The position numbers were made by a program, and so were the translations under genes. DNA of 35,356 nt. Source: Candidatus Zixiibacteriota bacterium (GTDB taxonomy: Bacteria > Zixibacteria > MSB-5A5 > GN15 > FEB-12). Where the stretch lies: NCBI GenBank assembly GCA_020351995.1, contig CP070674.1, positions 2,437,858-2,473,213 of the forward strand, written 5' to 3'. The stretch's first letter is position 1, and the number at the start of each line of letters is the position of its first letter. The notes below the pieces were generated by a model, which ran no database searches, had not been told where the DNA came from, and saw only the letters and a program-made list of their open reading frames with translations. Shown here one piece after another: positions 3,527 through 29,143 of this stretch.

Positions 3527-4984
3527 GTGCGACCGACACTCAGGTTTCTCACGGATGAACTGATAAATAAGATTGTCGATGAAGCCCGCTCGCTTCTTGC
3601 GAGTTTAGGTGTCGAAATTCACAATGATAGCGTCCTGTCGATGCTGGCTGACCACGGGGCCAGGGTCGATATGGAAGGTCACCATGCCTGGCTCACCGAT
3701 GACATCATCGACCGCGCCCTGAAAACCGCTCCGGCTTCCTTTAAACTCTATGACACCCTCGGCAACGAGGCCGTCAACCTGGCCGGTTACGAATCCAACT
3801 TCACACCGGGCTCAACGGCCATAAACATCCTCGATCAGGACGGCAAACTGAGCCGCCGACCGGTCGCCGATGACTATGTGCGTTATGCCAAGCTTATGAC
3901 CGGGATGCATCACATTGCTTCTCAGTCGACGGCGATGATGCCAACCGATGTTCACGAGAAAATCTCCGATAGCTACCGCCTGTACCTGAGCCTGATGTTT
4001 TGCGAAAAACCTGTCATCACCGGCACCTTCACCATCGAGGCCTTCGAAATAATGAAAGATCTTCAGCTCGCCGTTCGCGGCACCGCCGGGGAGCTGGCAG
4101 CTAAACCGCTCACGGTGTTTTCTGCTTGCCCGACCTCACCGTTGAAGTGGAGCGATGTTACCTCGCAAAATCTCGTCGACTGCGCCAACTGGTCAATCCC
4201 GGTCGAGTACATCTCCATGCCGCTTTCCGGATTCATGGCCCCTGTCACTCTGGTCGGGTCTCTTATTCAACACACTGCCGAGACTCTGAGCGGTCTGGCT
4301 ATCAGCCAGTTGACCAAACCCGGCGCTCCGGTTTTGTATGGAGGCTCACCGGCCGTATTCGATTTGAGGTACGAGACCACACCCATGGGAGACGTCGGAA
4401 CAATGATGCAGGATTGCGCTTACAACGAAATAGGTAAATATCTCAACCTTCCGACTCAGGCATATATCGGTCTCAGTGATGCCAAGCTTCTCGACGCCCA
4501 GGCCGGCCTCGAAACATCGATGGGCGCCACCCTGGCCGTGCTGGCCGGCATAAACAATATTTCGGGACCGGGAATGCTTGATTTTGAGAGTTGTTTCAGT
4601 CTTGAAAAGCTGGTCGTCGACAATGAAATTTGCGGCATGACATTCCGCATGGCAAAGGGCATCGAACCCAGGGACGATTTTCCCTCTCAGCCGTTATTCG
4701 AAGAACTGATCGCCGAACAGCATCTGCTGATCGCTGATCACACCCTACGCCATCTGAAAGATGAAGTCTTTTTCCCCGGACCTTCCATTGACCGGGCCAA
4801 CCGGTCGCGGTGGAAGGAAGAAGGCGGTCGAACTCTTTTCAAGAGAGCCAACAGCGAAGTCGATCGAATCATTGCCGAATACACGCCAGCCAGGCTCAGC
4901 GATGATGTCACCGCCGAGCTAACCAGACTGATGGAAACCGAGGCCCGCCGTCATGGAATGGATAAGTTGCCAGAGGTTAACTGA
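3527..4984 (+). CDS. MttB-family (trimethylamine-type) corrinoid methyltransferase, non-pyrrolysine
   Basis: The 485-residue protein belongs to the MttB superfamily. Members transfer a methyl group from a methylated or quaternary amine to the cobalt of a partner corrinoid protein. Family features include the N-terminal helical region with SLGVEIHNDSVLSMLADHGA, a TIM-barrel body and the segment GLSDAKLLDAQAGLETSMG. The length matches MttB (about 490). No in-frame amber codon interrupts the gene, so this is the pyrrolysine-free branch, whose known members act on glycine betaine, proline betaine, carnitine or related compounds. The start is GTG at 3527 behind an excellent AAAGGAGG. The stop overlaps the next ATG by one base (TGATG), indicating translational coupling with the reactivation-like protein. 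The substrate cannot be read from the sequence. Confidence 0.9.
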   Translation: MRPTLRFLTDELINKIVDEARSLLASLGVEIHNDSVLSMLADHGARVDMEGHHAWLTDDIIDRALKTAPASFKLYDTLGNEAVNLAGYESNFTPGSTAINILDQDGKLSRRPVADDYVRYAKLMTGMHHIASQSTAMMPTDVHEKISDSYRLYLSLMFCEKPVITGTFTIEAFEIMKDLQLAVRGTAGELAAKPLTVFSACPTSPLKWSDVTSQNLVDCANWSIPVEYISMPLSGFMAPVTLVGSLIQHTAETLSGLAISQLTKPGAPVLYGGSPAVFDLRYETTPMGDVGTMMQDCAYNEIGKYLNLPTQAYIGLSDAKLLDAQAGLETSMGATLAVLAGINNISGPGMLDFESCFSLEKLVVDNEICGMTFRMAKGIEPRDDFPSQPLFEELIAEQHLLIADHTLRHLKDEVFFPGPSIDRANRSRWKEEGGRTLFKRANSEVDRIIAEYTPARLSDDVTAELTRLMETEARRHGMDKLPEVN

Positions 4985-5697
4985 TGCGTCAAACTTTTGA
5001 CATTTCACCCGCACGCGTCACCCCTTCGGTGGAAGTCATTTTGAAAAACCAGGGTATACCGTTGGGCACGGACATAAACCGGCGAATCCACGAGCTTGCT
5101 GGAGAGGCTCTGTCGAAATATGAGCGTCTGGCACGGCCAAAGGCTCTTCTGATGCGCATCTCGCAGGGGGAATTCGAGCCGGTTTACCGCGGCCTGGGGC
5201 GCAACGAAACACCCGCCCCCCTCGATGCCATCTATCATGCTGCCAGCACCCTGGCACTTTTTGCCGTTACCATCGGGGAACCCATTTGTGAAGAGATAAG
5301 CCGCCTTTTCGAGACTCAGGATTACGCCGCCGCCGCTATGCTCGACGCCGCCGCGTCCGAAGGCGCCGAGTTGATTGCCCACGAGGCCGAGTGGCGCCTC
5401 CGAGACCAGCTGAACGAAAACGAACAACTCCCCACCGGGCACGGCTCGATGGCGTTTAGTCCTGGATACTGTGGCTGGCATATAAGCGCGCAAGCTAAAC
5501 TGTTTGATGTCCTGCGTCCCGAAGAAATCGGCATATCCCTCAATGACTCATTCCTGATGAACCCGTTGAAGTCCGTCACCGGCGTGATAGTAGTGGGCCC
5601 GAAAGAGATTTTCGACTTTGACGATAGTTTCCGCTTCTGCGGCGAATGCAGAGCACACACTTGCATTGATAGACTGAAGATACTCAGAGAACAATAA
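4984..5697 (+). CDS. MetH reactivation-domain-like protein
   Basis: The 237-residue protein resembles the free-standing version of the C-terminal activation domain of cobalamin-dependent methionine synthase. That domain binds S-adenosylmethionine and remethylates the inactive cob(II)alamin form. The family signature SPGYCGWHISAQAKLFDVL (about residues 158-176) is followed by GISLNDSFLMNPLKSVTG, matching the MetH pattern (SPGYP..., L..S..M.P..SVSG). The C-terminus adds C219-x2-C222-x4-C227 (FCGECRAHTCIDR), a possible metal or iron-sulfur site not found in the MetH domain. The start overlaps the MttB gene by one base, and the corrinoid-protein gene follows 28 nt later. It probably maintains the corrinoid protein of this operon in its active state. 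Confidence 0.8.
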   Translation: MRQTFDISPARVTPSVEVILKNQGIPLGTDINRRIHELAGEALSKYERLARPKALLMRISQGEFEPVYRGLGRNETPAPLDAIYHAASTLALFAVTIGEPICEEISRLFETQDYAAAAMLDAAASEGAELIAHEAEWRLRDQLNENEQLPTGHGSMAFSPGYCGWHISAQAKLFDVLRPEEIGISLNDSFLMNPLKSVTGVIVVGPKEIFDFDDSFRFCGECRAHTCIDRLKILREQ

Positions 5698-5725
5698 AAC
5701 GTCAATTGACGGCGGAGGAGATCCC

Positions 5726-6364
5726 GTGGATATATTGGAGAACATATCGCAAAGCCTGCAAAACGGCGAGCCCGATACCGTCGCTGAGCTGACCGGAAAA
5801 GCCCTTGACGATGGAGTGCCCGTTAAAGAACTTCTCCATAAGGGCTTGTTATCAGGAATGGAAGTTGTTGGTGAGAGGTTCAAAGCGCATGAAATATTCT
5901 TGCCCGACGTTCTTCTGGCCGCCAAAGCCATGTACGCCGGCATGGAGGTCCTCAAACCGCTCATGGTAGGTGAAGAAGCAGCTACCTCGGGCACGGTCGT
6001 TATCGGCACCGTTCAAGGTGATCTGCATGACATCGGCAAGAATCTCGTCGGAATCATGCTCCGCGGAGCCGGTTTCAACGTGGTCGACCTCGGCAAAGAC
6101 GTCCCACCGGAAAGGTTTATAGAAGAAGCACAAAGGACGGGCGCCCGGGTAATCGGAATGTCGGCCCTGCTTACGACCACCATGCCGGTCATGGGACTGG
6201 TCGTAAACCTCGCCCGAGAGCGCGGCCTTCTCGGTAAGGTCAAGATTATTGTCGGTGGCGCGCCGCTGTCCGATGAATATGCTCAACAAATTGGCGCCGA
6301 CGCCTATTGCTTCGACGGTATGAATGCCGTTGATTGCGTCAAGGGCTTTTTGGGGATCAACTAG
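5726..6364 (+). CDS. Methyltransferase corrinoid protein (MttC/MtbC family)
   Basis: The 212-residue protein has the classic two-domain layout of the methylamine corrinoid proteins and of the MetH cobalamin module. A helical cap domain spans about residues 1-85 (LLHKGLLSGMEVVGERF, IFLPDVLLAAKAM), followed by a Rossmann B12-binding domain. The cobalt-ligating motif is D-x-H-x-x-G in GDLHDIGKN, with His101 as the predicted lower axial ligand. The SALLTTTMP and VGGAPL segments complete the B12 site. The start is GTG at 5726 with a GGAGGAG ribosome site. It sits between its predicted reactivator and a homocysteine methyltransferase, so it is the likely methyl carrier between the MttB enzyme and homocysteine. 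Confidence 0.93.
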   Translation: MDILENISQSLQNGEPDTVAELTGKALDDGVPVKELLHKGLLSGMEVVGERFKAHEIFLPDVLLAAKAMYAGMEVLKPLMVGEEAATSGTVVIGTVQGDLHDIGKNLVGIMLRGAGFNVVDLGKDVPPERFIEEAQRTGARVIGMSALLTTTMPVMGLVVNLARERGLLGKVKIIVGGAPLSDEYAQQIGADAYCFDGMNAVDCVKGFLGIN

Positions 6365-6365
6365 T

Positions 6366-7265
6366 ATGCGACCGCTACTCGATCGCTTATCGGATGGAGA
6401 AGTACTTCTGGCCGATGGTGCCATGGGGACTATGCTATTTGCCAGTGGACTGAAACCGGGCCAGTGCCCGGAGAAAGTCAATCTGGATCGGCCTCAACTT
6501 CTTCGTCAGATAGCCTCGCTATATCTCGACGCCGGTTCGGATATCATTAGCACTAACACATTCGGTGGATCTCCTTTGAAGCTTGCCCAATATGATCTGG
6601 ACGACAGAATAGAAGAGATCAACGCCACCGCTGTTCGCGCCGCGCGCGAGGCTGTAGGTGATGATGCTTATGTTGCTGCCTCCATTGGCCCCTGCGGACG
6701 TCTGCTGGAACCATACGGAGATACCAGCCCCGATATCGTAGCCGAGGGATTCAGGCGTCAAATCAAAGCCGTTGTGGCCGAAGGTGTCGACGCCGTGTTC
6801 ATCGAGACTATGACCGACCTGACCGAAGCCACTCTCGCCATAAAAGCCGCCCGGGATATCTCGCCAACGATCCCGGTAAGCGCTACCATGACCTTCGATA
6901 TTACGTCAAAAGGTTTCTATACAATCATGGGGGTAAGTGTCGAGCAAGCCTGTCAGAACCTGGCTGACGCCGGGACTGACATCATTGGCTCCAATTGCGG
7001 CAACGGGATCGAGAATATGGTCAAAATAGCTGCCGAGTTCGCAAAGCACAGCAGCCTTCCTGTCATAATCCAGTCCAACGCCGGACTGCCTGATATCAGC
7101 GGAGGAACTACCGTTTATGCCGAGAGCCCCGATTTCATGGCCGCCCGCTGCTGTCAACTGCTCGATCTCGGCGTCCGTATTATTGGTGGATGCTGCGGCA
7201 CAACGCCCGAGCATATTGCCGCCTTCAGGAAAACGATTAACGACCGACTGGGAATCGAAAAGTGA
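6366..7265 (+). CDS. Homocysteine S-methyltransferase (MetH N-terminal-type, zinc-dependent)
   Basis: The 299-residue protein corresponds to the homocysteine-binding module of cobalamin-dependent methionine synthase. It is a TIM barrel that activates homocysteine on zinc and accepts a methyl group from methylcobalamin. Three predicted zinc ligands are present: Cys211 (GSNCGNG) and Cys276-Cys277 (GGCCGTTPEH). The N-terminal LLADGAMGTMLFASGL and DIISTNTFGG motifs are also canonical. The ATG at 6366 begins one base after the corrinoid gene's TAG stop; a longer reading from 6324 would only overlap that gene. It contains no pterin-binding, corrinoid or reactivation module. The latter two are separate genes just upstream, and the folate-binding module is missing from the operon. 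Its end overlaps the next gene by four bases. Confidence 0.92.
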   Translation: MRPLLDRLSDGEVLLADGAMGTMLFASGLKPGQCPEKVNLDRPQLLRQIASLYLDAGSDIISTNTFGGSPLKLAQYDLDDRIEEINATAVRAAREAVGDDAYVAASIGPCGRLLEPYGDTSPDIVAEGFRRQIKAVVAEGVDAVFIETMTDLTEATLAIKAARDISPTIPVSATMTFDITSKGFYTIMGVSVEQACQNLADAGTDIIGSNCGNGIENMVKIAAEFAKHSSLPVIIQSNAGLPDISGGTTVYAESPDFMAARCCQLLDLGVRIIGGCCGTTPEHIAAFRKTINDRLGIEK

Positions 7266-18881: not shown

Positions 18882-19152
18882 GTCGATAAGGAAAGTTCCT
18901 CTCGCAGGCGGTAACTGCCCGGCATTTTCAAGCCGGAAGTTAAGCCAAAGGCCGACCCTTTTCAAGCGATTTTCAAAAAAACTGCCCGGTCTGCTTGGCC
19001 CTTCAAGTTCTTATGCCATAATCCGATAATTAAATAAAACGTCGGAGCGCCGACGCGGGGCTGGTGCCTGATTGCGCCCGGGGGATATCGGCGACGTACT
19101 CGACAAAAAATGGTGAGAAGCAAGTTAGTTATACAGGTGATCATGAAGCATC

Positions 19153-19280: not shown

Positions 19281-22124
19281 ATGAAGCGCAACCTGAGAGC
19301 TTTCTTCCTCTTTTCAGCACTTGCTTTCTTTTCCATCAGTGCCGTTGCTCAGGACATGCCCCACGAGGACATCAATTTCGAATGCGAGGTCTGTCATTCC
19401 CTGAAAGAATGGTCTGGGGTCAGGTTTGACCATGCCGATAGCACCGGGTTCGTTCTTGAGGGTCGCCACGCTAGTGCTGAGTGCAAAGGCTGCCATACCC
19501 TGACAGATTTCTCCATCATTGACCAGCAGTGCGTTGCCTGTCACAAAGATATTCATGAAGCTAAACTCGGGCCGGATTGCGCCAGGTGCCACACCCCCGA
19601 CGGCTTCACGATTTTCAATATCGAAGACATCCATGCTCAGACCAACTTCCCTCTTATGGGTCGCCATGCCCTGGCCGACTGCCAGAGCTGTCACCGGGGA
19701 TTGCCGCGAGGTGACCTGTCATTCGAAACCACTCGCTGTGTCGGCTGCCATCAACAGAACTATCTCGAGGCCGCCAGCCCCAATCACGTCTCGGCTGGTT
19801 TCTCCACCGATTGTGATAACTGCCACCAGATGAGCTCATGGCACCCGGCCATGATAACCGAGCACGACATATTCTTCCCCATCTTTTCAGGTGAACACGC
19901 CGGTGAGTGGGACGATTGTTCCACCTGCCACATAAACCCTGATAACTTCGCCGAATTCAGTTGCTTCGGCTGCCATGAACATAACCAGACCGATACCGAC
20001 GCGGACCACGTCGGAATCCCGGCATATAATTATAATAGCGAGGACTGCTACCTTTGCCATCCAAGAGGTACCGCCGACGAGTTTGTCGCACATGACGCGC
20101 TCTATTTCCCGATATATACCGGGGCTCACGCCGCGGTATGGGATGATTGCTCCGATTGCCACATCGACCCCAATGATAAGTCGGTCTTTTCCTGCACCGT
20201 TTGTCACGGGCAGTCCGAAACCAACCCGATACACGGCGGCATAACTTCTTATGTCTGGGAAAGCAGCGCCTGTCTTACCTGCCATCCGACCGGATCCGGC
20301 GGGGAATATACGGAGCACGATGTTGCCTATTTCCCCATCTATACCGGGACCCATGGCGGCACCTGGGACGATTGCACCACCTGCCACACCAACCCCGCCG
20401 ACCGTTCCGAATACACCTGCCTGGTCTGCCACCCGCAGGGGACAATTGACCCCATACACCTCGGTATGACCAGTTACAGTTACGTGAGCACGGCCTGTTT
20501 CTCATGTCATCCCCAGGGCGTGGTTGAAGATTATCTTGAGCACGATGCCGACTTCTTCCCGATATATTCCGGCACTCACAGCGGTGAGTGGAGCGACTGC
20601 TCTCAATGTCATACCGACCCGGCCGACAAGAGCGTCGTAAGTTGCCTGACCTGTCACGATCAAACCACCACCGACGAGATTCACTCCGGCATTACGTCAT
20701 ACACTTACGAAACCAGCGCCTGCCTGACCTGCCATCCGACAGGCTCAGGTGGAGAGTTTACAGAGCACGACGTGACCTATTTTCCGATATACTCAGGCAC
20801 CCACAGCGGAGCCTGGAGCGATTGCGCTCAATGCCATATTAACCCGGCCGACCGTACCGAATATGATTGCCTCGGCTGTCACCTGCAGGGCACAATAGAC
20901 GTCATCCATCAGGGTATGACCAGCTACAGTTATCTAAGTACTGTTTGCTTCACCTGCCACCCACAGGGAGTAGTGGAGAACTACCTCGAACACGACGCGG
21001 ACTTCTTCCCCATCTACTCCGGCGACCACAGCGGCGCCTGGGCAGAGTGCGCCACATGCCACACCGACCCGGCTAATCGGTCCGTTTTTACCTGTCTGGT
21101 TTGCCATGATCAGGGTACGGTTGATCCGATACATCTGGGAATGTTGAGCTACTCTTACGAAAGCTCGGTCTGCTATAGCTGCCATCCGGCTGGTGTCGTT
21201 GAAGATTACACCGAGCACGACGCAGCCTTCTTCCCGATATATTCCGGCGCTCATTCCGGTACATGGGTGGATTGCTCGACCTGCCACACCGATCCGGGCG
21301 ATAAATCGGTATTCACCTGTCTCGTTTGCCATAACCAGACAGACATGGATAATATGCACGTGGGAATCTCCGGCTACGTTTACAACAGCACCGACTGCCT
21401 GACCTGTCATCCCGACGGCAGTGAGATTGAGTTCACCGAACACGAACTCTCGTATTTCCCGATATACTCCGGTGCTCACGCCGGCGTCTGGGCTGAATGC
21501 GCAACCTGCCACACCGTTCCCGGCGACCGCACCATCTACGACTGTCTCGCCTGTCACGACCAGACTTCGGCGGATGGCATCCATCTGGGCATGCCCGAGT
21601 ATTTTTACCAGAGCGACGTGTGCTATTCCTGCCATCCGCAGGGAGTGCCGGAGGATTATCCACAGCACGATGTCAACGGCTTCTTCCCGATATACTCGGG
21701 GAACCACGCCGGTGTCTGGGCCGAATGCGCTACCTGTCATACCGATCCGACCAGCAAGACCGTATTCACCTGTCTGGTTTGCCATGAGCAGGCCGTCATT
21801 GAGCCATACCACCTGGGGATGCCAAGCTACCTGTATGAGAGCAATGCTTGCTACAGTTGCCATCCCAACGGGATCATCGAAGATTATCTGGAGCACGACG
21901 ACGAAGGCTTCTTCCCTATCTATTCGGGCACCCATGACGGTAGATGGACCTCCTGCGCCACATGTCATATTGTCCCTACGGATAAGAGCGTCTTCTCATG
22001 TCTGGAAACGTGCCACCAGAATCCCCAGACTGACAACTGGCATACCAGCCCCACTCCTGTTCCCGGCTATACGTATGACAGTGAGGCCTGTTACGCCTGT
22101 CATCCCAGGGGTGAGTACCCGTAA
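19281..22124 (+). CDS. Giant multiheme c-type cytochrome, 37 predicted haems
   Basis: The 947-residue exported protein has a Sec signal peptide (about residues 1-23, cleavage after SAVA). I count 36 CxxCH motifs and one CxxxCH (CLETCH, from residue 907), giving 37 covalent haem sites. The first seven lie in an irregular N-terminal region (to about residue 190). The other thirty are in ten tandem modules of 75-77 residues. Most modules have three CxxCH plus three further conserved histidines (in EHD, G-x-H after FPIYSG, and HxG), enough for bis-histidine ligation of each haem. Such proteins move electrons across the periplasm or cell surface. The ATG at 19281 is chosen for its AGGAG and signal peptide. 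A beta-barrel gene follows after 15 nt. No substrate-reduction domain is seen. Confidence 0.93.
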   Translation: MKRNLRAFFLFSALAFFSISAVAQDMPHEDINFECEVCHSLKEWSGVRFDHADSTGFVLEGRHASAECKGCHTLTDFSIIDQQCVACHKDIHEAKLGPDCARCHTPDGFTIFNIEDIHAQTNFPLMGRHALADCQSCHRGLPRGDLSFETTRCVGCHQQNYLEAASPNHVSAGFSTDCDNCHQMSSWHPAMITEHDIFFPIFSGEHAGEWDDCSTCHINPDNFAEFSCFGCHEHNQTDTDADHVGIPAYNYNSEDCYLCHPRGTADEFVAHDALYFPIYTGAHAAVWDDCSDCHIDPNDKSVFSCTVCHGQSETNPIHGGITSYVWESSACLTCHPTGSGGEYTEHDVAYFPIYTGTHGGTWDDCTTCHTNPADRSEYTCLVCHPQGTIDPIHLGMTSYSYVSTACFSCHPQGVVEDYLEHDADFFPIYSGTHSGEWSDCSQCHTDPADKSVVSCLTCHDQTTTDEIHSGITSYTYETSACLTCHPTGSGGEFTEHDVTYFPIYSGTHSGAWSDCAQCHINPADRTEYDCLGCHLQGTIDVIHQGMTSYSYLSTVCFTCHPQGVVENYLEHDADFFPIYSGDHSGAWAECATCHTDPANRSVFTCLVCHDQGTVDPIHLGMLSYSYESSVCYSCHPAGVVEDYTEHDAAFFPIYSGAHSGTWVDCSTCHTDPGDKSVFTCLVCHNQTDMDNMHVGISGYVYNSTDCLTCHPDGSEIEFTEHELSYFPIYSGAHAGVWAECATCHTVPGDRTIYDCLACHDQTSADGIHLGMPEYFYQSDVCYSCHPQGVPEDYPQHDVNGFFPIYSGNHAGVWAECATCHTDPTSKTVFTCLVCHEQAVIEPYHLGMPSYLYESNACYSCHPNGIIEDYLEHDDEGFFPIYSGTHDGRWTSCATCHIVPTDKSVFSCLETCHQNPQTDNWHTSPTPVPGYTYDSEACYACHPRGEYP
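19860..22121 (+). repeat. Ten tandem three-haem modules (225-nt period) inside the cytochrome gene
   Basis: Module starts, taken at the E of the EHD motif or its equivalent, fall at 19860, 20088, 20313, 20538, 20763, 20988, 21213, 21438, 21663 and 21891. The spacing is exactly 225 nt for most and 228 nt twice. Each module reads EHD...FFPIYSGxHxGxW, CxxCH, CLxCH, HxG, then CxxCHPxG. The nucleotide sequences have diverged but the spacing is conserved, which indicates selection on module length. The long antisense open frames across this region are by-products of the repeat. Confidence 0.9.
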
Positions 22125-22139: not shown

Positions 22140-23741
22140 ATGAAAGTAGCCAAATACATAATCGCTCTTTTCCTAACGATACTCGCAGGCAATGTGATTG
22201 CCGCCGACGGCCAGACACAGCCCAGCGTGACTTATATTTCGCCGGAGGCGATCTATTTCGACGGCGGTCTGTATGCCGGTATTGGCGTGGGTGATACAGT
22301 TGCCTTCATAAGGGATCGCCAGACAGTTGCCGTCGCTATCGTGACCAAAGCCGCTGATATGGCCGCCGCCGCCGAACTCTGCCAGCAGAAATATCCCGTC
22401 AAGGTGGGTGACCGGGCTGCTCTCCTTGCGGACGTCCCCAGGTTGACCGCCCCGATGGCGACGATGGCATCTTCCACCACCATTTCCGCCGCCGCCACCG
22501 AGCCTCAAAAACCCCGGCCGCAAAAGCCGAGTCAATTGAAAGGCACCCTGTCAATCGAGAATTTCTACCGTAAAGATATGACTGATTCCGAACTCGATCG
22601 TACCCAGCCCGGAATCAGAACCCGTCTGTCCGTCACAAATGTCGGCGGGACTGACCTGACTCTCAGACTGCGCCATCGCACCCGCCTGTACCACCGCGCC
22701 CGGTCACTCTACACTGATCAGGAAACCAACGAGTGGGTTCACCAGGTTTACGAGTTCGGCCTCTTCCATGAGGTGGAAGATGCCCGCACCGAGTGGGCCA
22801 TTGGACGGGTGCTCTCGCCGTACGTTCGCGGCGTGGGATATGTCGATGGTGGCTATCTTGCCCATCAATTGAATCCGCACTTCAAACTGGGGCTTGCCGG
22901 CGGTACCGTTCCCGATCGGCTTACCTCCGAACCTGATTTTGACCGGAGAAAATTCGGTTTGTTCGCTTCATGGGAAACTGGGACTTATTCAACTCAGAGA
23001 CTAGCCTTCACGGCGGCTGTCTCAACTGAATATGACAAGCAGACCGTAAGCCGCGATTTCCTGTATTTCCAGACTACCTACTCAAAGAAGGGTTTGATGT
23101 CACTTTACCAGTCAGTCGAAATCGATCTCAACCGGGGATGGCGATATAAGAGCGCCGGGGAACGCTTTACTTTCACCAATTATTATGCTAACGCCACGGT
23201 CAATCTGACGTCCACGGCTTCCTTATTCGCCTCCTACGATGCCCGCAAGAATATCAGGTATATCGAGCTTATGGATACCCCCGACAGCCTGTTTAACGAC
23301 GATGTGCACCAGGGTGTCAGGGCTGGATTCAACTGGCGGCCGACGCAGCGTCTGTACATCCGCGCCAATGGAGGCATCAGGTTCCGCGAAGGTGAATTCG
23401 ATAATAACCGGTTCGTATCCGGCACTATACGGATAAACCGCTTCCCGGCTCCTCGTCACTCGGTTACCATGTCGATGCACGTTACCGAGACTCATTTCAC
23501 TACCGGGTACCGGCCGATGCTCAGTTATCGATTCCCGGTTTCACGGAAGATGATTCTGAATCTTACCGGTTCCGGCTATATTTACAAAACCGGCTCGAAG
23601 AGTACGAAGTACTATTACGGTGATATCAGCACCCACTACAATTTCGGTCGCCGCTACTATCTGTCCGCAAATGTCCGCCAGTATTTCGACAGCAAACTCG
23701 AATCCATCGAACTCCGCACCGAACTTGGCATCCGGCTCTGA
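22140..23741 (+). CDS. Outer-membrane beta-barrel protein, partner of the multiheme cytochrome
   Basis: The 533-residue protein has a signal peptide (about residues 1-22). A small beta-rich periplasmic segment (about 25-105, GIGVGDTVAFIRDRQTVAVA) is followed by a Pro/Ala/Thr-rich linker. From about residue 130 to the end there are many alternating amphipathic strands with aromatic girdles, for example LTLRLRHRTRLYHRARSLY and YYLSANVRQYFDSKLESIEL. The C-terminus ends in a strand (ELRTELGIRL), typical of outer-membrane barrels. It begins 15 nt after the cytochrome stop and is almost certainly cotranscribed. The ribosome site is weak (GAAGG very close to the ATG), which may imply coupling. By analogy with porin-cytochrome conduits it could carry electrons or cytochrome across the outer membrane. 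It is not recognisably MtrB. Confidence 0.8.
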   Translation: MKVAKYIIALFLTILAGNVIAADGQTQPSVTYISPEAIYFDGGLYAGIGVGDTVAFIRDRQTVAVAIVTKAADMAAAAELCQQKYPVKVGDRAALLADVPRLTAPMATMASSTTISAAATEPQKPRPQKPSQLKGTLSIENFYRKDMTDSELDRTQPGIRTRLSVTNVGGTDLTLRLRHRTRLYHRARSLYTDQETNEWVHQVYEFGLFHEVEDARTEWAIGRVLSPYVRGVGYVDGGYLAHQLNPHFKLGLAGGTVPDRLTSEPDFDRRKFGLFASWETGTYSTQRLAFTAAVSTEYDKQTVSRDFLYFQTTYSKKGLMSLYQSVEIDLNRGWRYKSAGERFTFTNYYANATVNLTSTASLFASYDARKNIRYIELMDTPDSLFNDDVHQGVRAGFNWRPTQRLYIRANGGIRFREGEFDNNRFVSGTIRINRFPAPRHSVTMSMHVTETHFTTGYRPMLSYRFPVSRKMILNLTGSGYIYKTGSKSTKYYYGDISTHYNFGRRYYLSANVRQYFDSKLESIELRTELGIRL

Positions 23742-24208: not shown

Positions 24209-25078
24209 ATGTATAGTATAATTCGCGGCGCCGGATGCGGATTCATCCTCGTCAGTCTCCTCGTATCGAATGTTGCGGGGATAGATTTTCCGAGCAACAT
24301 CTCCGGCGACTGTATGTATGATGAGGCTACCGACAGGACCATTTGCACCTATGTAGTGGCCTCGGGTACACCGGCACTCAGCCACCTCATAATACCTTTT
24401 TCTGAAAACTGTATCGATAAGTTCGAAGTGACCAGCTCCTTCTTCAGATTTGAAAATCCCCAGGCTTACGACGATCCGTTTTGCGGTGAGATATATGGCA
24501 TCAAATCCGACCGGGAAATGGGCGACGGACAGGTGGAAACCTTTACCATCTCTTATGTCGGCAACTGGATGCACAAGGTTGGCATGGATGTAGTATACGC
24601 TGCCCTGAAAGCCGCCAATAATTGCGAGGTATATCCCGTACCGGGAGTCGCGGACTGTGACTTCGTCCCTCAGTGTGAATTCTCCGTAAACTTTACTGTA
24701 TCCGAGTTCTATACTCGCAAACCGGGAGACTATGCCGGCCCGATCGTTTGCCTGACTGCTACCTCGAACCTGCCGATCAACATCACCTTCGATTCCTTTG
24801 GCGATCTTTATCCTCAGGCTTCCTTCGGCACTGGTTTCATACCGGCGCTTTACCAGACCGCTCCGGTGGAGCAGGTTCAACCACCACCTGCGTTTCTGAC
24901 TCCGGCTGAATTTAACGAGCAGAAGGTCATTATACCTGACGACGAAGAAGAGCACAGTTTTTGTATCTGGTGGAAGCTATCGCTCGGACCTGAAATATCT
25001 GGCTGCGAATATAGTGATGACGCCGCGATCGTCATCGAAATAGAGAACCTTGAACAGTATATCGAACTTGAACCTTGA
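24209..25078 (+). CDS. Secreted protein of unknown function, paralogue A
   Basis: The 289-residue protein has an N-terminal signal peptide (about residues 1-24) and is rich in cysteine and acidic residues. I do not recognise a domain. The C-terminal 130 residues resemble the next gene's product. Shared segments are RKPGDYAG (170-177 here; RKPGIYAG there), a following SN...I.. strand, FGDL/FEDL, a CIWWKL/ICWKLW segment and CEYSDDA near the end (266-272). The start ATG at 24209 has GGGGAGAA upstream; a nearer ATG at 24205 is out of frame. It is probably a surface or extracellular beta-rich protein. The gene order with a chaperone-like protein and a secretin suggests it may be a substrate of that apparatus, which is inference. 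Confidence 0.75.
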   Translation: MYSIIRGAGCGFILVSLLVSNVAGIDFPSNISGDCMYDEATDRTICTYVVASGTPALSHLIIPFSENCIDKFEVTSSFFRFENPQAYDDPFCGEIYGIKSDREMGDGQVETFTISYVGNWMHKVGMDVVYAALKAANNCEVYPVPGVADCDFVPQCEFSVNFTVSEFYTRKPGDYAGPIVCLTATSNLPINITFDSFGDLYPQASFGTGFIPALYQTAPVEQVQPPPAFLTPAEFNEQKVIIPDDEEEHSFCIWWKLSLGPEISGCEYSDDAAIVIEIENLEQYIELEP

Positions 25079-25193
25079 GGAGAAGATAGTAACTGGAGAG
25101 GAGGGCTTATCGAACTTTACGACCGAAAAACCGAAAAACTTACATCGTAGTGTATACACAAAACCATTAAACACTCCAAAATAGGGGGACATT
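25079..25193. promoter_or_regulatory. Spacer between paralogues A and B with a 10-bp palindrome
   Basis: The 115-base spacer contains the perfect palindrome GTGTATACAC (25150-25159) about 35 bases upstream of the next start codon. A strong AGGGGGA ribosome site precedes the ATG at 25194. The palindrome is short and could be chance; it would suit a small repressor. Confidence 0.3.
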
Positions 25194-25910
25194 ATGCAGA
25201 GGTTTCTCGCAATATTCGTCGCCTCCTTGATCTTCATGGCTGCTGGAAGCGTCTTGGCACAGCATGTGCCAATCGATCCCACCCTGCCGGGAAGCCAGGA
25301 AAGTGCTACCTGGTACTGGGATGGAGCGGCGTGGATCGCGCACTCCATGTTGGATCCTGAAGACGTCAACGCACGGCTGTGGCGGTCGGGTGACGAAGCT
25401 ACGGGTAACTGCAACAAGAAATGGTGGACTATAAATGTCGCCGTGACAGCATCAGTTGCCCAGTGGGTGGATTTCGATCTGGATTGGAACCAGTTTGACT
25501 GGTTCGTCCGCAAACCCGGCATCTACGCCGGCAACTGCATCGAGGGTTGCGTCGCCTCCAACAGTGACATTCTCATTGACTATGAGGGCTTTGAAGACCT
25601 TCAACCGATTCTTGCGGGCAATAATCCAATTGAAGTCTACTACGGCTTTGAAACCGCCCAGATGAATCCACTGGACCCGGCTTATCCCTGGGTTCGCTCA
25701 TTCGATCTCAATTTCGATGATGATCTCATCATCGATTGTGAAGATCTTCACTACGGTATCTGCTGGAAACTGTGGAACAAGATTACGGTGATCGAATGCA
25801 ACAGCGCCTGCGAGTATCGCGATGACGCTGAGATCATCCTGACCCTGCTGAACCAGAAAGAGTGGATCGATTGGGATGACGGCTTCTGGTGGGATACACC
25901 AAAACCGTAG
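25194..25910 (+). CDS. Secreted protein of unknown function, paralogue B
   Basis: The 238-residue protein has a clear signal peptide ending MAAGSVLAQ (about residues 1-23). It is unusually rich in tryptophan and aspartate. It shares with paralogue A the RKPGIYAG motif (106-113), the FEDLQP segment, the ICWKLW segment and CEYRDDAEIILTLLNQKEWID (from 206) near the C-terminus. Its region before RKPG (FDLDWNQFDWFV) differs from A. Paired cysteines (115, 119, 182, 190, 202, 206) suggest disulfides. No family is recognised. It precedes a chaperone-like protein and a secretin, and may be exported or displayed by them. Confidence 0.75.
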   Translation: MQRFLAIFVASLIFMAAGSVLAQHVPIDPTLPGSQESATWYWDGAAWIAHSMLDPEDVNARLWRSGDEATGNCNKKWWTINVAVTASVAQWVDFDLDWNQFDWFVRKPGIYAGNCIEGCVASNSDILIDYEGFEDLQPILAGNNPIEVYYGFETAQMNPLDPAYPWVRSFDLNFDDDLIIDCEDLHYGICWKLWNKITVIECNSACEYRDDAEIILTLLNQKEWIDWDDGFWWDTPKP

Positions 25911-25993
25911 TTCATTCAGAAGCTGGATCGCCAGAGGGACAATCAAGTGTTAATTGTATCCAAAGCTTGTATATCCCTCAGGGTGTAATTCTT

Positions 25994-26023
25994 TCGACGC
26001 CGGAGACTTGTCCCCGGCGTCGA
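25994..26023 (+). terminator. GC-rich hairpin, possible terminator
   Basis: CGACGCCGG (25995-26003) pairs perfectly with CCGGCGTCG (26014-26022) across a 10-base loop, and one more T-A pair extends the stem. It lies 84 bases after the paralogue B stop and before the next promoter, as a terminator would. No T-run follows, so it is not a canonical rho-independent terminator. Confidence 0.45.
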
Positions 26024-26099
26024 GCCATATTCATAAAGACGCCTATGAAGACCTTTTTTGCCACATTGATATCACGACTACGGTATACCAAACAATGGC

Positions 26100-26130
26100 T
26101 TGACACGCTCCTGGCTGCCCGCTATATAAT
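26100..26130 (+). promoter_or_regulatory. Sigma-70-like promoter for the chaperone-like/secretin genes
   Basis: An exact TTGACA at 26100-26105 is followed by TATATAAT at 26123-26130. The -10 can be read as TATATA with a 17-base spacer or TATAAT with a 19-base spacer. It lies 40 bases upstream of the preferred ATG at 26170. This is the strongest promoter-like sequence I see in the window. Confidence 0.6.
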
Positions 26131-26169
26131 AGCAGTATTCCCACCAAATCGATGAGAAAGCAGGGCTTT

Positions 26170-27861
26170 ATGATAGTTTCACAGAAACCGTTAAAGGCAC
26201 CCAGGAAATTCTCGAAAGGCGGAATAACCGCGTGGCTAGCCATAGCACTTGTGATACTGACGGCCACACCGGCTTTCGGCCAGTTTGATGTTCTTCTGTC
26301 GCCCCAGGTAGGTCAACTTGAATTGCGCCCCGGTTCACGTTCAATGACACGCTTCAGCTTGACTAATCAGGAGCCGGAACAGTCCCTGACGGTGAGGATT
26401 TTTGCCAGAGACTCCTATCAAGGTGAACGCGGCGAATACAAACTGTCCGATTCCGCGATGGCGTATTCCTGCGTTGAATGGCTTACCCTTACCGATACTT
26501 TGATTGACATCGAACCGGGAGCTACACGTCAGATCATGGTCGGCATTGAGGTACCACCCAGGGCCATGGGCGGAGCCTATGGCGCCGTTGTCTTTGAATT
26601 CTTGCCCAAGATCGAGCGGACCACTCAGCCAGGCGCCATGGCAACGCGATTTGACTATCGCTTTCAGATTCCGGCCTGGCTGGAAATCACCGTCAAGCGG
26701 ACCACCGGGGCTATTCGCAGGCTGGCTCCGGGAGGAATAACGGTCACCCCCAGTGCCGAGATCCCTTCTCTGCAGAGGCGCGTGGGCGACCGCGGCATCA
26801 GGGTCAGCCTGGACGTAGAGAATACCGGCAACATCCATGTCTTCACCGAGGGTAGAGTAATAGTCCGTGACCAGAACCGCCGTCTCATACAGGACACCCG
26901 TCTTGGGGCCGGCCGTGGGTTGGTTCTACCGGGTAACAGGGTGCCCTTGAGATCTGTTTTGCCTCTCCCTCCTCCGGGTCAGTATACCGTCAAAGCCTTC
27001 GTCGAATACGGCGGGCGATCCCCGGCAATTGCCCAGACCACTTTCGAAATCAGCGATGACCGGAAGTCACGGGTCGGCCAATCGGAAGTGGCCATGCCGA
27101 TATATCTGGATTACCGGCCGGAGAAGTTCGAGCAGCCGGTTCCAGCCGTCGGCTTCCGAACCTTCGCCATTAGCCTGATGAACCGCGAACAATCACCGGT
27201 GACGGTTGATGTATCGACAGGACTGCTGACCTTTACCCGTGAGGGTCATATGTGGATCTCTGAAGAAGAAACTCCGCGCGAACGAAGCTGTCTGCCATGG
27301 ATGACTTTTGAACCCGCACAATTTACAATTGACCCCAACCGGCGATTGAATGTTAGAGCTACTCTCGCTGTTCCCGATTCCGCCAGGGGAGGCTACTACG
27401 GTTGCGTGGTCCTCAACGCCCATCTGACGACTGATACCAGCCAGTCCACACTCTCCTCTCCATTATATATCCCGATTTATGTCACCGTGCCCCCCGATCT
27501 CGAACACAACGGGGAGATTGTCGATGTCGTAATTGATCAGGTCGGACAGGCCGTCACCCTTAAAACGGAATTCAAAAACACCGGTAATATCCATGAGCTT
27601 CTCACGGGAAGCGTGAAAATTCAAATGTGGATGGAACCGGAATCGGTCGAAGGCATAGAAATCGTGGGCGAAGCACGGTTTGCAGATTTCATTAGTCTGC
27701 AACTGGAAACAGACAGCTCCTACGTACTACCCGGAGAGTCTCGCCTGATATCTTCGCAGAGAGCTGATGGTCTGGTCGCCGGACGGTACCGCGCTGAAGT
27801 AAGCGTTCACTACGGCGGCGAAAAACCTGTTAAACTGGAACGGGAATTCACTATTGAATAA
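26170..27861 (+). CDS. Exported protein with duplicated immunoglobulin-like (pilus-chaperone-like) halves
   Basis: The protein is about 563 residues long with a signal peptide (cleavage after TPAFG, about residue 36). The mature part contains two homologous halves. Each begins with a strand-rich domain (FDVLLSPQVGQLELRPGSRS; MPIYLDYRPEKFEQPVPAVG). Each then has a segment of the type GGAYGAVVFEF / GGYYGCVVLNA and a second Ig-like domain with ENTGNIH / KNTGNIH. This recalls DUF916-like or PapD-type periplasmic proteins, though no donor-strand motif can be confirmed. The ATG at 26170 is preferred (CAGGG upstream); an ATG at 26152 is also in frame but lacks a ribosome site. The gene overlaps the secretin by eight bases, so the products probably work together. 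Confidence 0.7.
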   Translation: MIVSQKPLKAPRKFSKGGITAWLAIALVILTATPAFGQFDVLLSPQVGQLELRPGSRSMTRFSLTNQEPEQSLTVRIFARDSYQGERGEYKLSDSAMAYSCVEWLTLTDTLIDIEPGATRQIMVGIEVPPRAMGGAYGAVVFEFLPKIERTTQPGAMATRFDYRFQIPAWLEITVKRTTGAIRRLAPGGITVTPSAEIPSLQRRVGDRGIRVSLDVENTGNIHVFTEGRVIVRDQNRRLIQDTRLGAGRGLVLPGNRVPLRSVLPLPPPGQYTVKAFVEYGGRSPAIAQTTFEISDDRKSRVGQSEVAMPIYLDYRPEKFEQPVPAVGFRTFAISLMNREQSPVTVDVSTGLLTFTREGHMWISEEETPRERSCLPWMTFEPAQFTIDPNRRLNVRATLAVPDSARGGYYGCVVLNAHLTTDTSQSTLSSPLYIPIYVTVPPDLEHNGEIVDVVIDQVGQAVTLKTEFKNTGNIHELLTGSVKIQMWMEPESVEGIEIVGEARFADFISLQLETDSSYVLPGESRLISSQRADGLVAGRYRAEVSVHYGGEKPVKLEREFTIE

Positions 27862-29143
27862 AATGTATGCCTGCCGCGGGGCTTCTTTGACGGTCTGGGC
27901 CGTCTGCCTGACCCTGGCTGCCACATTCGGACTGACCGGCTCCGCTCTGGCGCAGCCGGCCGGTGATAGTGACTCTTCCAAAATCGCCCCCGTCGACATT
28001 CGCGAATGCCTTGTCACAAATGTCTTCTACGACGCTCATATACGCGAAATTCTCAATACCCTGTCTGCTCAGTGCTTTGTAAATATTGTCGCCGATGAAA
28101 CCTGTGCCGGCATCGTGACTATTGAGCTCACCGACGTCCCGCTGGAAGAAGCCATGCGACGGATTCTGATGCCACTCGGACTCACTTATCGCTGGCAGGA
28201 CGGCTACTACCTGGTCGGCTCACCACGTCCGGAAAATCTATCTTTTCCCCTCCTGACCGAGACCGAACTATATCGCCCCAATTATATCAAGGCGGCCGAT
28301 GTCCCCAAACTGGTATCCACCTTCTATGAACCTTTCATGAAGGTTAATGAAAAAACAAATACCGTTGCCCTGACCGGATCCCCGGAATTGCTGGAACGGC
28401 TCAAAGCCGACCTGGCCATGGTCGACCGGCCCGCTCGCCAGATAATGATCGAAGCTCTCGTCACCGAGATCTCCAGTGACTATCTCCAGGAGGTCGGACT
28501 CGGCTTCCTCTTTACTGGAACAAGAGATAACCGGCAGGGTGTCCTGAACATCCCCCTCAGTTCGGTCAGTGACAGCGCTATTGTCATCACTGGCACCAGG
28601 CTTGACGACGTCTGGGGCAAATGGTCAGTCGACTACCAGGCCGCCGTCAGGGCTCTCATATCCGACGGTAAGGCAGACATCCGAGCCAATCCCAAGCTGG
28701 CCACTAAGGAAGGCCAGAAAGCGCGCATTTTCGTCGGTCAGGACCAGTATCACACTATCGCCACCGGCACCGAACCGTATTACTACACCCGGCTGGAGGT
28801 AATCAAGGTCGGAATCGCGCTGGAGATCACCCCTTACGTCGCCAGCAACGGAGATATCTCCGTGGAAATCATTTCGGTTGTCAGCGACGTCACCGGTATG
28901 GGAGCCACCGGCCTTCCACTGGTTAACACCAGGGATGTCATCACGAGTATTACCGTTCCTGACGGTGAAACAATTGTCATTGGCGGCCTTCAGACCGACA
29001 ACACCCGTAAGACCGTCAAAAAGGTACCGTTGCTGGGAGACATTCCCGTCCTGGGTCATCTGTTCAGAAACACCAGCACCGAGGTGCGAACATCGCAGAT
29101 CGTCATAATGATTACTCCCCATCTGCTGGAAGACCAGAACTGA
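27854..29143 (+). CDS. Secretin (GspD/PilQ/CpaC family), short form
   Basis: The 429-residue protein has a signal peptide (to about residue 37, ending SALAQ). A short N-terminal STN/N0-like domain (about 50-115) contains IREILNTLSAQCFVNIVADE. One secretin_N-like domain (about 140-205) contains NTVALTGSPELLERLKADLA. The conserved secretin beta-barrel domain spans about 215-425, with ANPKLATKEGQKARIFVG, TRDVITSITVPDGETIVIGG and VPLLGDIPVLGHLFRN. Secretins form large gated pores in the outer membrane for type II/III secretion, type IV pili or phage. No ATPase, pseudopilin or inner-membrane platform is in the window. The TTG start at 27854 has GGGAA upstream; the ATG at 27863 is an alternative. 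It overlaps the chaperone-like gene. Confidence 0.88.
   Translation: MNKMYACRGASLTVWAVCLTLAATFGLTGSALAQPAGDSDSSKIAPVDIRECLVTNVFYDAHIREILNTLSAQCFVNIVADETCAGIVTIELTDVPLEEAMRRILMPLGLTYRWQDGYYLVGSPRPENLSFPLLTETELYRPNYIKAADVPKLVSTFYEPFMKVNEKTNTVALTGSPELLERLKADLAMVDRPARQIMIEALVTEISSDYLQEVGLGFLFTGTRDNRQGVLNIPLSSVSDSAIVITGTRLDDVWGKWSVDYQAAVRALISDGKADIRANPKLATKEGQKARIFVGQDQYHTIATGTEPYYYTRLEVIKVGIALEITPYVASNGDISVEIISVVSDVTGMGATGLPLVNTRDVITSITVPDGETIVIGGLQTDNTRKTVKKVPLLGDIPVLGHLFRNTSTEVRTSQIVIMITPHLLEDQN

Follow-up and report, generated by a model that had tools for sequence, protein, structure and literature searches.

Among the described systems closest to the locus presented here, MtrCAB, MtoAB and PioAB rely on decahaem cytochromes, the barrel protein MtrB counting 26 strands. 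Much larger cytochromes belong to the gene clusters known as PCC3, whose large, repeat-rich members were described as 'extracellular MHC' by He et al. in 2017 and carry a median of 34 haems, the largest reaching 85 (PMC5566968). PCC3 was also reported in Gallionellaceae (PMC10734462) and in Burkholderiales (PMC7399161), and its function has been called untested even in isolates (PMC12442390). In addition, GSU1996 and GSU0592 (12 haems each), as well as GSU2210 (27 haems), are built as chains of three-haem domains of ~75 residues within one polypeptide (PMC10138318).

The locus under study lies in a window of 35,356 nt (C1:2437858-2473213 of G000, the single-contig, 3.61-Mb genome of a member of the uncultured phylum Zixibacteria). 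Coordinates given below are positions within this stretch unless a contig or locus is named, and the other G numbers designate genomes of relatives. A giant multihaem cytochrome gene is followed there by the gene of a predicted beta-barrel, and we consider it probable that the cytochrome is an outward-facing electron wire of tunable length, docked in the barrel in the manner of a PCC3-type extracellular cytochrome. The features of the two genes are as follows.

19281..22124, + strand: 37-haem cytochrome gene, 947 aa (open frame, motif count, Pfam matches)
19281..19352, + strand: putative Sec-type signal peptide without lipobox Cys, residues 1-24 (read by eye)
19353..19850, + strand: seven-haem head, residues 25-190, 166 residues (7 CxxCH, motif spacing, conserved His)
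19851..20081, + strand: module 1, 77 aa (motif spacing; positional orthologue in same-genus genomes)
20082..20306, + strand: module 2, 75 aa (motif spacing)
20307..20531, + strand: module 3, 75 aa (motif spacing)
20532..20756, + strand: module 4, 75 aa (motif spacing)
20757..20981, + strand: module 5, 75 aa (motif spacing)
20982..21206, + strand: module 6, 75 aa (motif spacing)
21207..21431, + strand: module 7, 75 aa (motif spacing)
21432..21659, + strand: module 8, 76 aa (motif spacing)
21660..21887, + strand: module 9, 76 aa (motif spacing)
21888..22121, + strand: module 10, 78 aa, with the CxxxCH (motif count and spacing)
22140..23741, + strand: beta-barrel partner, 533 aa (AlphaFold2, Foldseek, co-occurrence)

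The 947-codon frame had been read, from its letters alone, as holding 36 CxxCH and one CxxxCH motifs, and a pattern count of all frames agrees. The single CxxxCH among these 37 haem motifs is CLETCH (residue 907, 21999-22016, in module 10), no haem motif was found in the remaining frames of 19281-22124, and residue-shuffled copies of the protein reached at most 5 CxxCH in 2000 trials. All 74 Cys of the protein lie inside haem motifs, the chain averages ~25 residues per haem, and acidic residues number 130 against 26 basic ones. An alternative start in the same frame, at 19110, would give a longer protein of 1004 aa, the start at 19281 being favoured because of the signal peptide MKRNLRAFFLFSALAFFSISAVAQ.

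The motifs of the head are spaced by 33, 16, 16, 34, 19 and 25 residues, and its seven haems are accompanied by eight non-motif His; invariant non-motif His mark the head in 18 relatives and again in 63 alignment rows. Behind the head come ten motif triplets with a spacing of 34/35-15-26/28/30, seen at the DNA level as a repeat period of 225 nt with copies 60-74% identical. The ten three-haem modules of about 75 residues announced by the sequence-only reading are indeed present, with sizes corrected to 75 residues for six of them, 76 for two, and 77 and 78 for the others; the three additional His expected in most modules are exactly three in nine of the ten, and four in module 1. The same reading considered the His sufficient for bis-His ligation of every haem, which is borne out by 39 non-motif His for 37 haems and by the 61 intact homologues, all of which have at least as many non-motif His as haems (excess 0-9). 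Across the 358 modules taken from these 61 proteins, 339 share one layout of the non-motif His: a pair precedes motif 1, the interval from motif 1 to motif 2 has none, and that from motif 2 to motif 3 has one or two. Haem-free AlphaFold2 modelling of residues 25-428, covering the head and three modules, gave a poor model (mean pLDDT 64, pTM 0.34), for which Foldseek returned no fold match. Since the modules have diverged from one another (43-75% identical at the protein level) and the same architecture recurs in many independent assemblies, an assembly error was rejected as the source of the repeat.

Pfam places the 37-haem cytochrome in the broad Cytochrome_C7/Cytochrom_CIII superfamily (3.2e-27 and 8.2e-27, respectively), the Cytochrome_C7 (PF14522) score of 94.6 bits, against a curated cut-off of 24.8, being summed over the repeats. 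A phmmer search of the PDB with the whole protein gave no match. A profile of 63 family members, the matches of which are boosted by the shared haem motif, recovered the 16-haem Hmc (4e-13), UndA, GSU1996 and MtrF, and aligned to residues 20-317 of the 318 of GSU1996 (3OV0) with a value of 1.3e-8. In the NCBIfam library, TIGR04257 ('nanowire_3heme') describes a three-haem domain of 75 positions; it reported nothing at E up to 10 for the whole protein, for one module or for four modules. Besides, the window module differs from PpcA (1OS6 sequence) in its His order, 2-0-1 against 2-1-0, and in its motif spacing, 15 and 26 against 24 and 14. The assignment to c7 polymers was dropped on these two grounds: the module may well work like a c7 domain of GSU1996, yet, as judged by profile and ligand order, it is not the same. 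The earlier assertion that no described family has a 3-haem/75-residue repeat therefore stands, within the libraries searched, for the module itself, but not for the general design, already represented by GSU1996, GSU0592, GSU2210, TIGR04257 and PCC3.

The haem number of the family follows a simple rule. Among the 72 uninterrupted homologues with a seven-haem head, 61 contain 7+3n haems, with n from 1 to 18 and a range of 10-61, for an expectation by chance of ~1/3 and among related sequences that are not independent; most of the exceptions are visibly frame-split genes or have lost one motif. Across homologues, modules mostly recur every 72-75 residues, and the 61-haem homologue, a protein of 1521 aa from Ignavibacteriales (L141:7743-12308), displays a higher-order spacing repeat (31/32/35 pattern). 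Variation of the module number in relatives, a check that had been suggested from the start, was found within a single genus, with 10 modules in the window, 14 in G001 and 11 in G002, where one motif is lost, and the neighbour G018 has 7. Whereas the terminal modules of the window and of the same-genus genomes correspond by position, the interior ones look like block copies: module 7 of the window has two counterparts in G001, modules 6 and 11, themselves sharing 79% identity, and within the window modules 3 and 5 (75% identical) and modules 2 and 4 (65% identical) form pairs, with a 450-nt spacing also seen in the DNA. The length thus changes through duplication of interior blocks while the ends stay fixed.

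Matches to the cytochrome were obtained in 25 of 98 relatives, and a scan of the collection with the head and first module yielded 80 named loci, the seven-haem head being found in 79 of them. These loci come from Zixiibacteriota, Calditrichota, Acidobacteriota, Eisenbacteria, Latescibacterota, Ignavibacteriota, Hydrogenedentota and Bacteroidota. The usual cluster in relatives encodes a FAD/NAD-4Fe4S protein, a membrane protein of ~292 aa, a cytochrome with 17-23 haems, the wire cytochrome and the barrel. The ~292-aa protein bears SGxxG and WX3HX13H on two helices, with four His invariant in 14 diverse sequences, a combination published as characteristic of the inner-membrane protein of PCC3 and PCC4 (PMC5566968). 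An inner-membrane protein of ~300 aa with the signature was found in 60 of 79 related loci and also in G001, G006 and G033; two alphaproteobacterial plasmid matches of this protein, in Roseomonas and Acetobacter, were discarded, being copper-resistance regions without annotated multihaem cytochromes. As judged by gene content and by the signature in relatives, the window cytochrome is of the large PCC3-type kind. The FAD/NAD(P) and 4Fe-4S protein, of ~435 aa, is linked to the cluster in Zixibacteria, Calditrichota and Emticicia (e.g. L035:12858-14165, - strand) and does not figure in the PCC3 description consulted. Its presence suggests that the cluster is coupled to NAD(P)H or ferredoxin of the cytoplasm.

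In a tree of the heads, the window type, marked by a first spacing of 32-33 and by modules of 34-15-26, falls into a clade of 16 rows (support 97/97) that stands apart from the remaining PCC3-type heads. Both head subtypes are encoded in one cluster in three loci (L089, L133 and L156), where a common-type cytochrome with 19 or 22 haems precedes a short one of the window type with 10 haems.

The barrel gene adjoins the cytochrome gene in the window, whose genome holds it in a single copy. AlphaFold2 predicts a signal helix, a small N-terminal beta domain at residues 29-95 and 22 long strands at residues 132-532 with a mean pLDDT of 90.4, and the best Foldseek matches of this model are outer-membrane ushers and porins (E 4e-9). 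Of the 80 loci retrieved with the cytochrome head, 59 also yielded a homologue of the barrel, and many of the other 21 stop at a contig edge. The two genes are also paired in G001, G003 and G018; in G002 (apparently L085; C1:550393-551745), the closest relative, the barrel gene lies ~17 kb from the cytochrome gene. More generally, the pairing spans several phyla, even where other cluster genes have been lost.

Two other regions of the window may be mentioned. The segment at 24209-29143, between the barrel gene and carB, encodes a PilQ/GspD-like secretin together with a 569-aa protein and two secreted proteins that contain Cys. A role of this secretin region as export partner was weighed and set aside: the segment is missing at that place in the same-genus G003, where the carB homologue directly follows the barrel gene, so that it is not a conserved part of the locus. 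The stretch at 3527-7265 looks, by eye, like a row of genes for a trimethylamine-type methyltransferase, a corrinoid protein and a homocysteine methyltransferase, which would serve C1 methyl transfer.

As regards the rest of the conduit, a profile search for the PCC3 inner-membrane protein gave no match in G000, G002, G003 and G018, the 20-haem cytochrome of a relative used as query matched in G000 the window gene only, and no periplasmic MHC of ~21 haems lies beside that gene. These absences are firmest for G000 and G003, since G002 and G018 are 80% and 71% complete, respectively. The window clade appears to keep the barrel and the wire, with no sign of the remaining conduit. G001 combines a full PCC3 with, elsewhere, a stand-alone barrel/cytochrome pair, the cytochrome of which has 49 haems. 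On a tentative reading that we regard as less likely than not, barrel and length-tunable wire would constitute a stand-alone two-gene device, working without the inner-membrane and periplasmic components of PCC3, whose cytochrome would be a single-chain extracellular nanowire of ~10-60 nm across the family, with a ligand topology unlike that of c3 or c7.

As no inner-membrane or periplasmic match was found in G000, another periplasmic cytochrome would have to feed the wire there. The genome encodes cytochrome c assembly genes, and candidate donors include NapC/NrfH-like proteins, cytochrome-b-linked multihaem genes, a Qrc-like cluster and a DmsE/MtrA-like decahaem protein. At L073:5322-8979 (- strand, C1 ~1852321-1855978), genes for a DmsE/MtrA-like decahaem cytochrome, a 523-aa protein in the position of MtrB and a hexahaem, lipoprotein-like cytochrome likely form a separate, MtrABC-like conduit. 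Another giant cytochrome, of 1064 aa with 42 haem motifs, is encoded at L075:4924-8118 (- strand, C1 ~2706923-2710117); it is of the paired-CxxCH type, with ~25 residues per haem and a layout unrelated to that of the window gene.

Taken together, these data lead to the following model. The protein would be a secreted c-type cytochrome binding 37 bis-His haems in one chain, whose conserved seven-haem head would dock on the 22-strand outer-membrane barrel of the adjacent gene, or inside it, while the ten modules would extend from the membrane as a single-polypeptide wire. Electrons could then pass to or from an external target, for example another cell, an iron mineral or a redox-active solid. 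In most relatives, they would travel between an inner-membrane di-haem b protein, a periplasmic cytochrome of fixed size (20 or 23 haems) and the barrel with its wire, and wire length would be set in evolution by steps of one module via internal block duplication. With linear packing of the haems presumed, and by extrapolation from GSU1996, which measures 12 nm for 12 haems (cited in PMC10138318), the 37-haem chain would have a length of the order of 35-40 nm. No experiments on any family member were found in the literature.

Because neither a lipobox nor a known surface-export signal was identified in the 37-haem cytochrome, its surface exposure is argued indirectly, and we infer the extracellular placement from two features, the pairing with the barrel and the length variation. 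The barrel is the most constant companion of the cytochrome, and the partner cytochrome keeps a fixed size, with 20 haems in 36 loci and 23 in 23, while the module array varies freely; a fixed size suits a periplasm of fixed width, and the varying part would therefore face the open side. An unlikely alternative is that the chain serves as an electron store, a capacitor or carrier, within the periplasm, the barrel being used for export or for an unrelated purpose. The three-haem chains of Geobacter, GSU1996, GSU0592 and GSU2210, are indeed periplasmic and proposed as electron stores (PMC10138318), the signal peptide of the window protein is an ordinary Sec one without lipobox, and its genome yielded no periplasmic PCC3 partner. 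Nevertheless, the association with the barrel persists across several phyla, including where other cluster genes are lost, and at ~1 nm per haem the long forms of a family ranging from 10 to 61 haems would exceed the width of the periplasm.

It seems highly improbable that the cytochrome follows instead an MtrA-like route, threading the barrel as its transmembrane element with modules that fill the periplasm rather than the outside. Such a route would accord with a cytochrome reaching inwards in G000, where no periplasmic PCC3 cytochrome was found, and with the DmsE/MtrA decahaem profile TIGR03508, which matches weakly (E 1.3e-14, 54.3 bits for a cut-off of 192.2); the match of TIGR03507 is also far below its cut-off. 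However, the clusters of relatives already include another cytochrome, whose fixed size would fit the periplasm, and the module number is unconstrained. Least probable of all is a subunit of extracellular filaments like those of OmcS, OmcE or OmcZ, placed end to end or as bundles of chains, since, despite the high haem density and the repeat structure, known subunits carry 4, 6 or 8 haems (PMC10138318), the window protein matches no solved structure, the family profile prefers Hmc, UndA, GSU1996 and MtrF to filament cytochromes, and a variable chain length is hard to square with a conserved polymer interface.

If the preferred model of an outward-facing wire is correct, the exact three-haem steps from 10 to 61 haems, in otherwise equivalent clusters, would provide a natural series in which the rate of electron transfer can be related to length. 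A wire made of a single chain also sidesteps the question of polymer assembly that clouds OmcS-type filaments, and the distribution of the family over several uncultured or little-studied phyla suggests that cells exchange electrons with the outside in groups for which this is rarely assumed. A testable isolate is at hand in the cultured Emticicia oligotrophica DSM 17448 (Bacteroidota; WP_015031199.1, annotated as 'cytochrome c3 family protein'), whose head is of the other subtype, with a first spacing of 36 residues. Its plasmid pEMTOL02 (L162, NC_018749.1 78197-89995) carries a complete homologous cluster with ccsA, the inner-membrane protein, the NAD(P)/FeS protein, a 23-haem and a 40-haem (7+33) cytochrome, and a gene in the barrel position.

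Compared with known systems, the locus resembles MtrCAB, MtoAB and PioAB in associating a cytochrome with an outer-membrane barrel for electron passage, although 22 strands are predicted here against 26 in MtrB. With GSU1996, GSU0592 and GSU2210 it shares tandem three-haem domains of ~75 residues in one polypeptide; GSU1996, however, has one His-Met haem per domain while the window protein has enough His for all its haems, and the GSU1996 group is periplasmic and devoid of a barrel partner, whereas the window cytochrome has a barrel neighbour. The likeness to PCC3 lies in ~25 residues per haem and a variable haem number, as well as in the clusters of relatives, with their barrel, very large repeat-rich cytochrome, periplasmic cytochrome of ~20 haems and ~300-aa HX13H/SGxxG protein. 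In the window, the barrel (directly downstream) and the large, low-ratio repeat cytochrome are present, but not the periplasmic MHC of ~21 haems nor the ~300-aa inner-membrane protein. Further differences from PCC3 as published are the host range, Alpha-, Beta- and Gammaproteobacteria there and other phyla for the window family, the extra FAD/NAD-4Fe4S protein in the clusters of relatives, and the haem counts, those of Gallionellaceae (10-18, 26-35) not following the 7+3n rule that the window family obeys. Single-polypeptide three-haem wires and large PCC3 cytochromes are therefore already known, and what is new is the distinct three-haem module, the 7+3n rule, the duplication of interior blocks and a clade that has its wire and barrel without the rest of the conduit.
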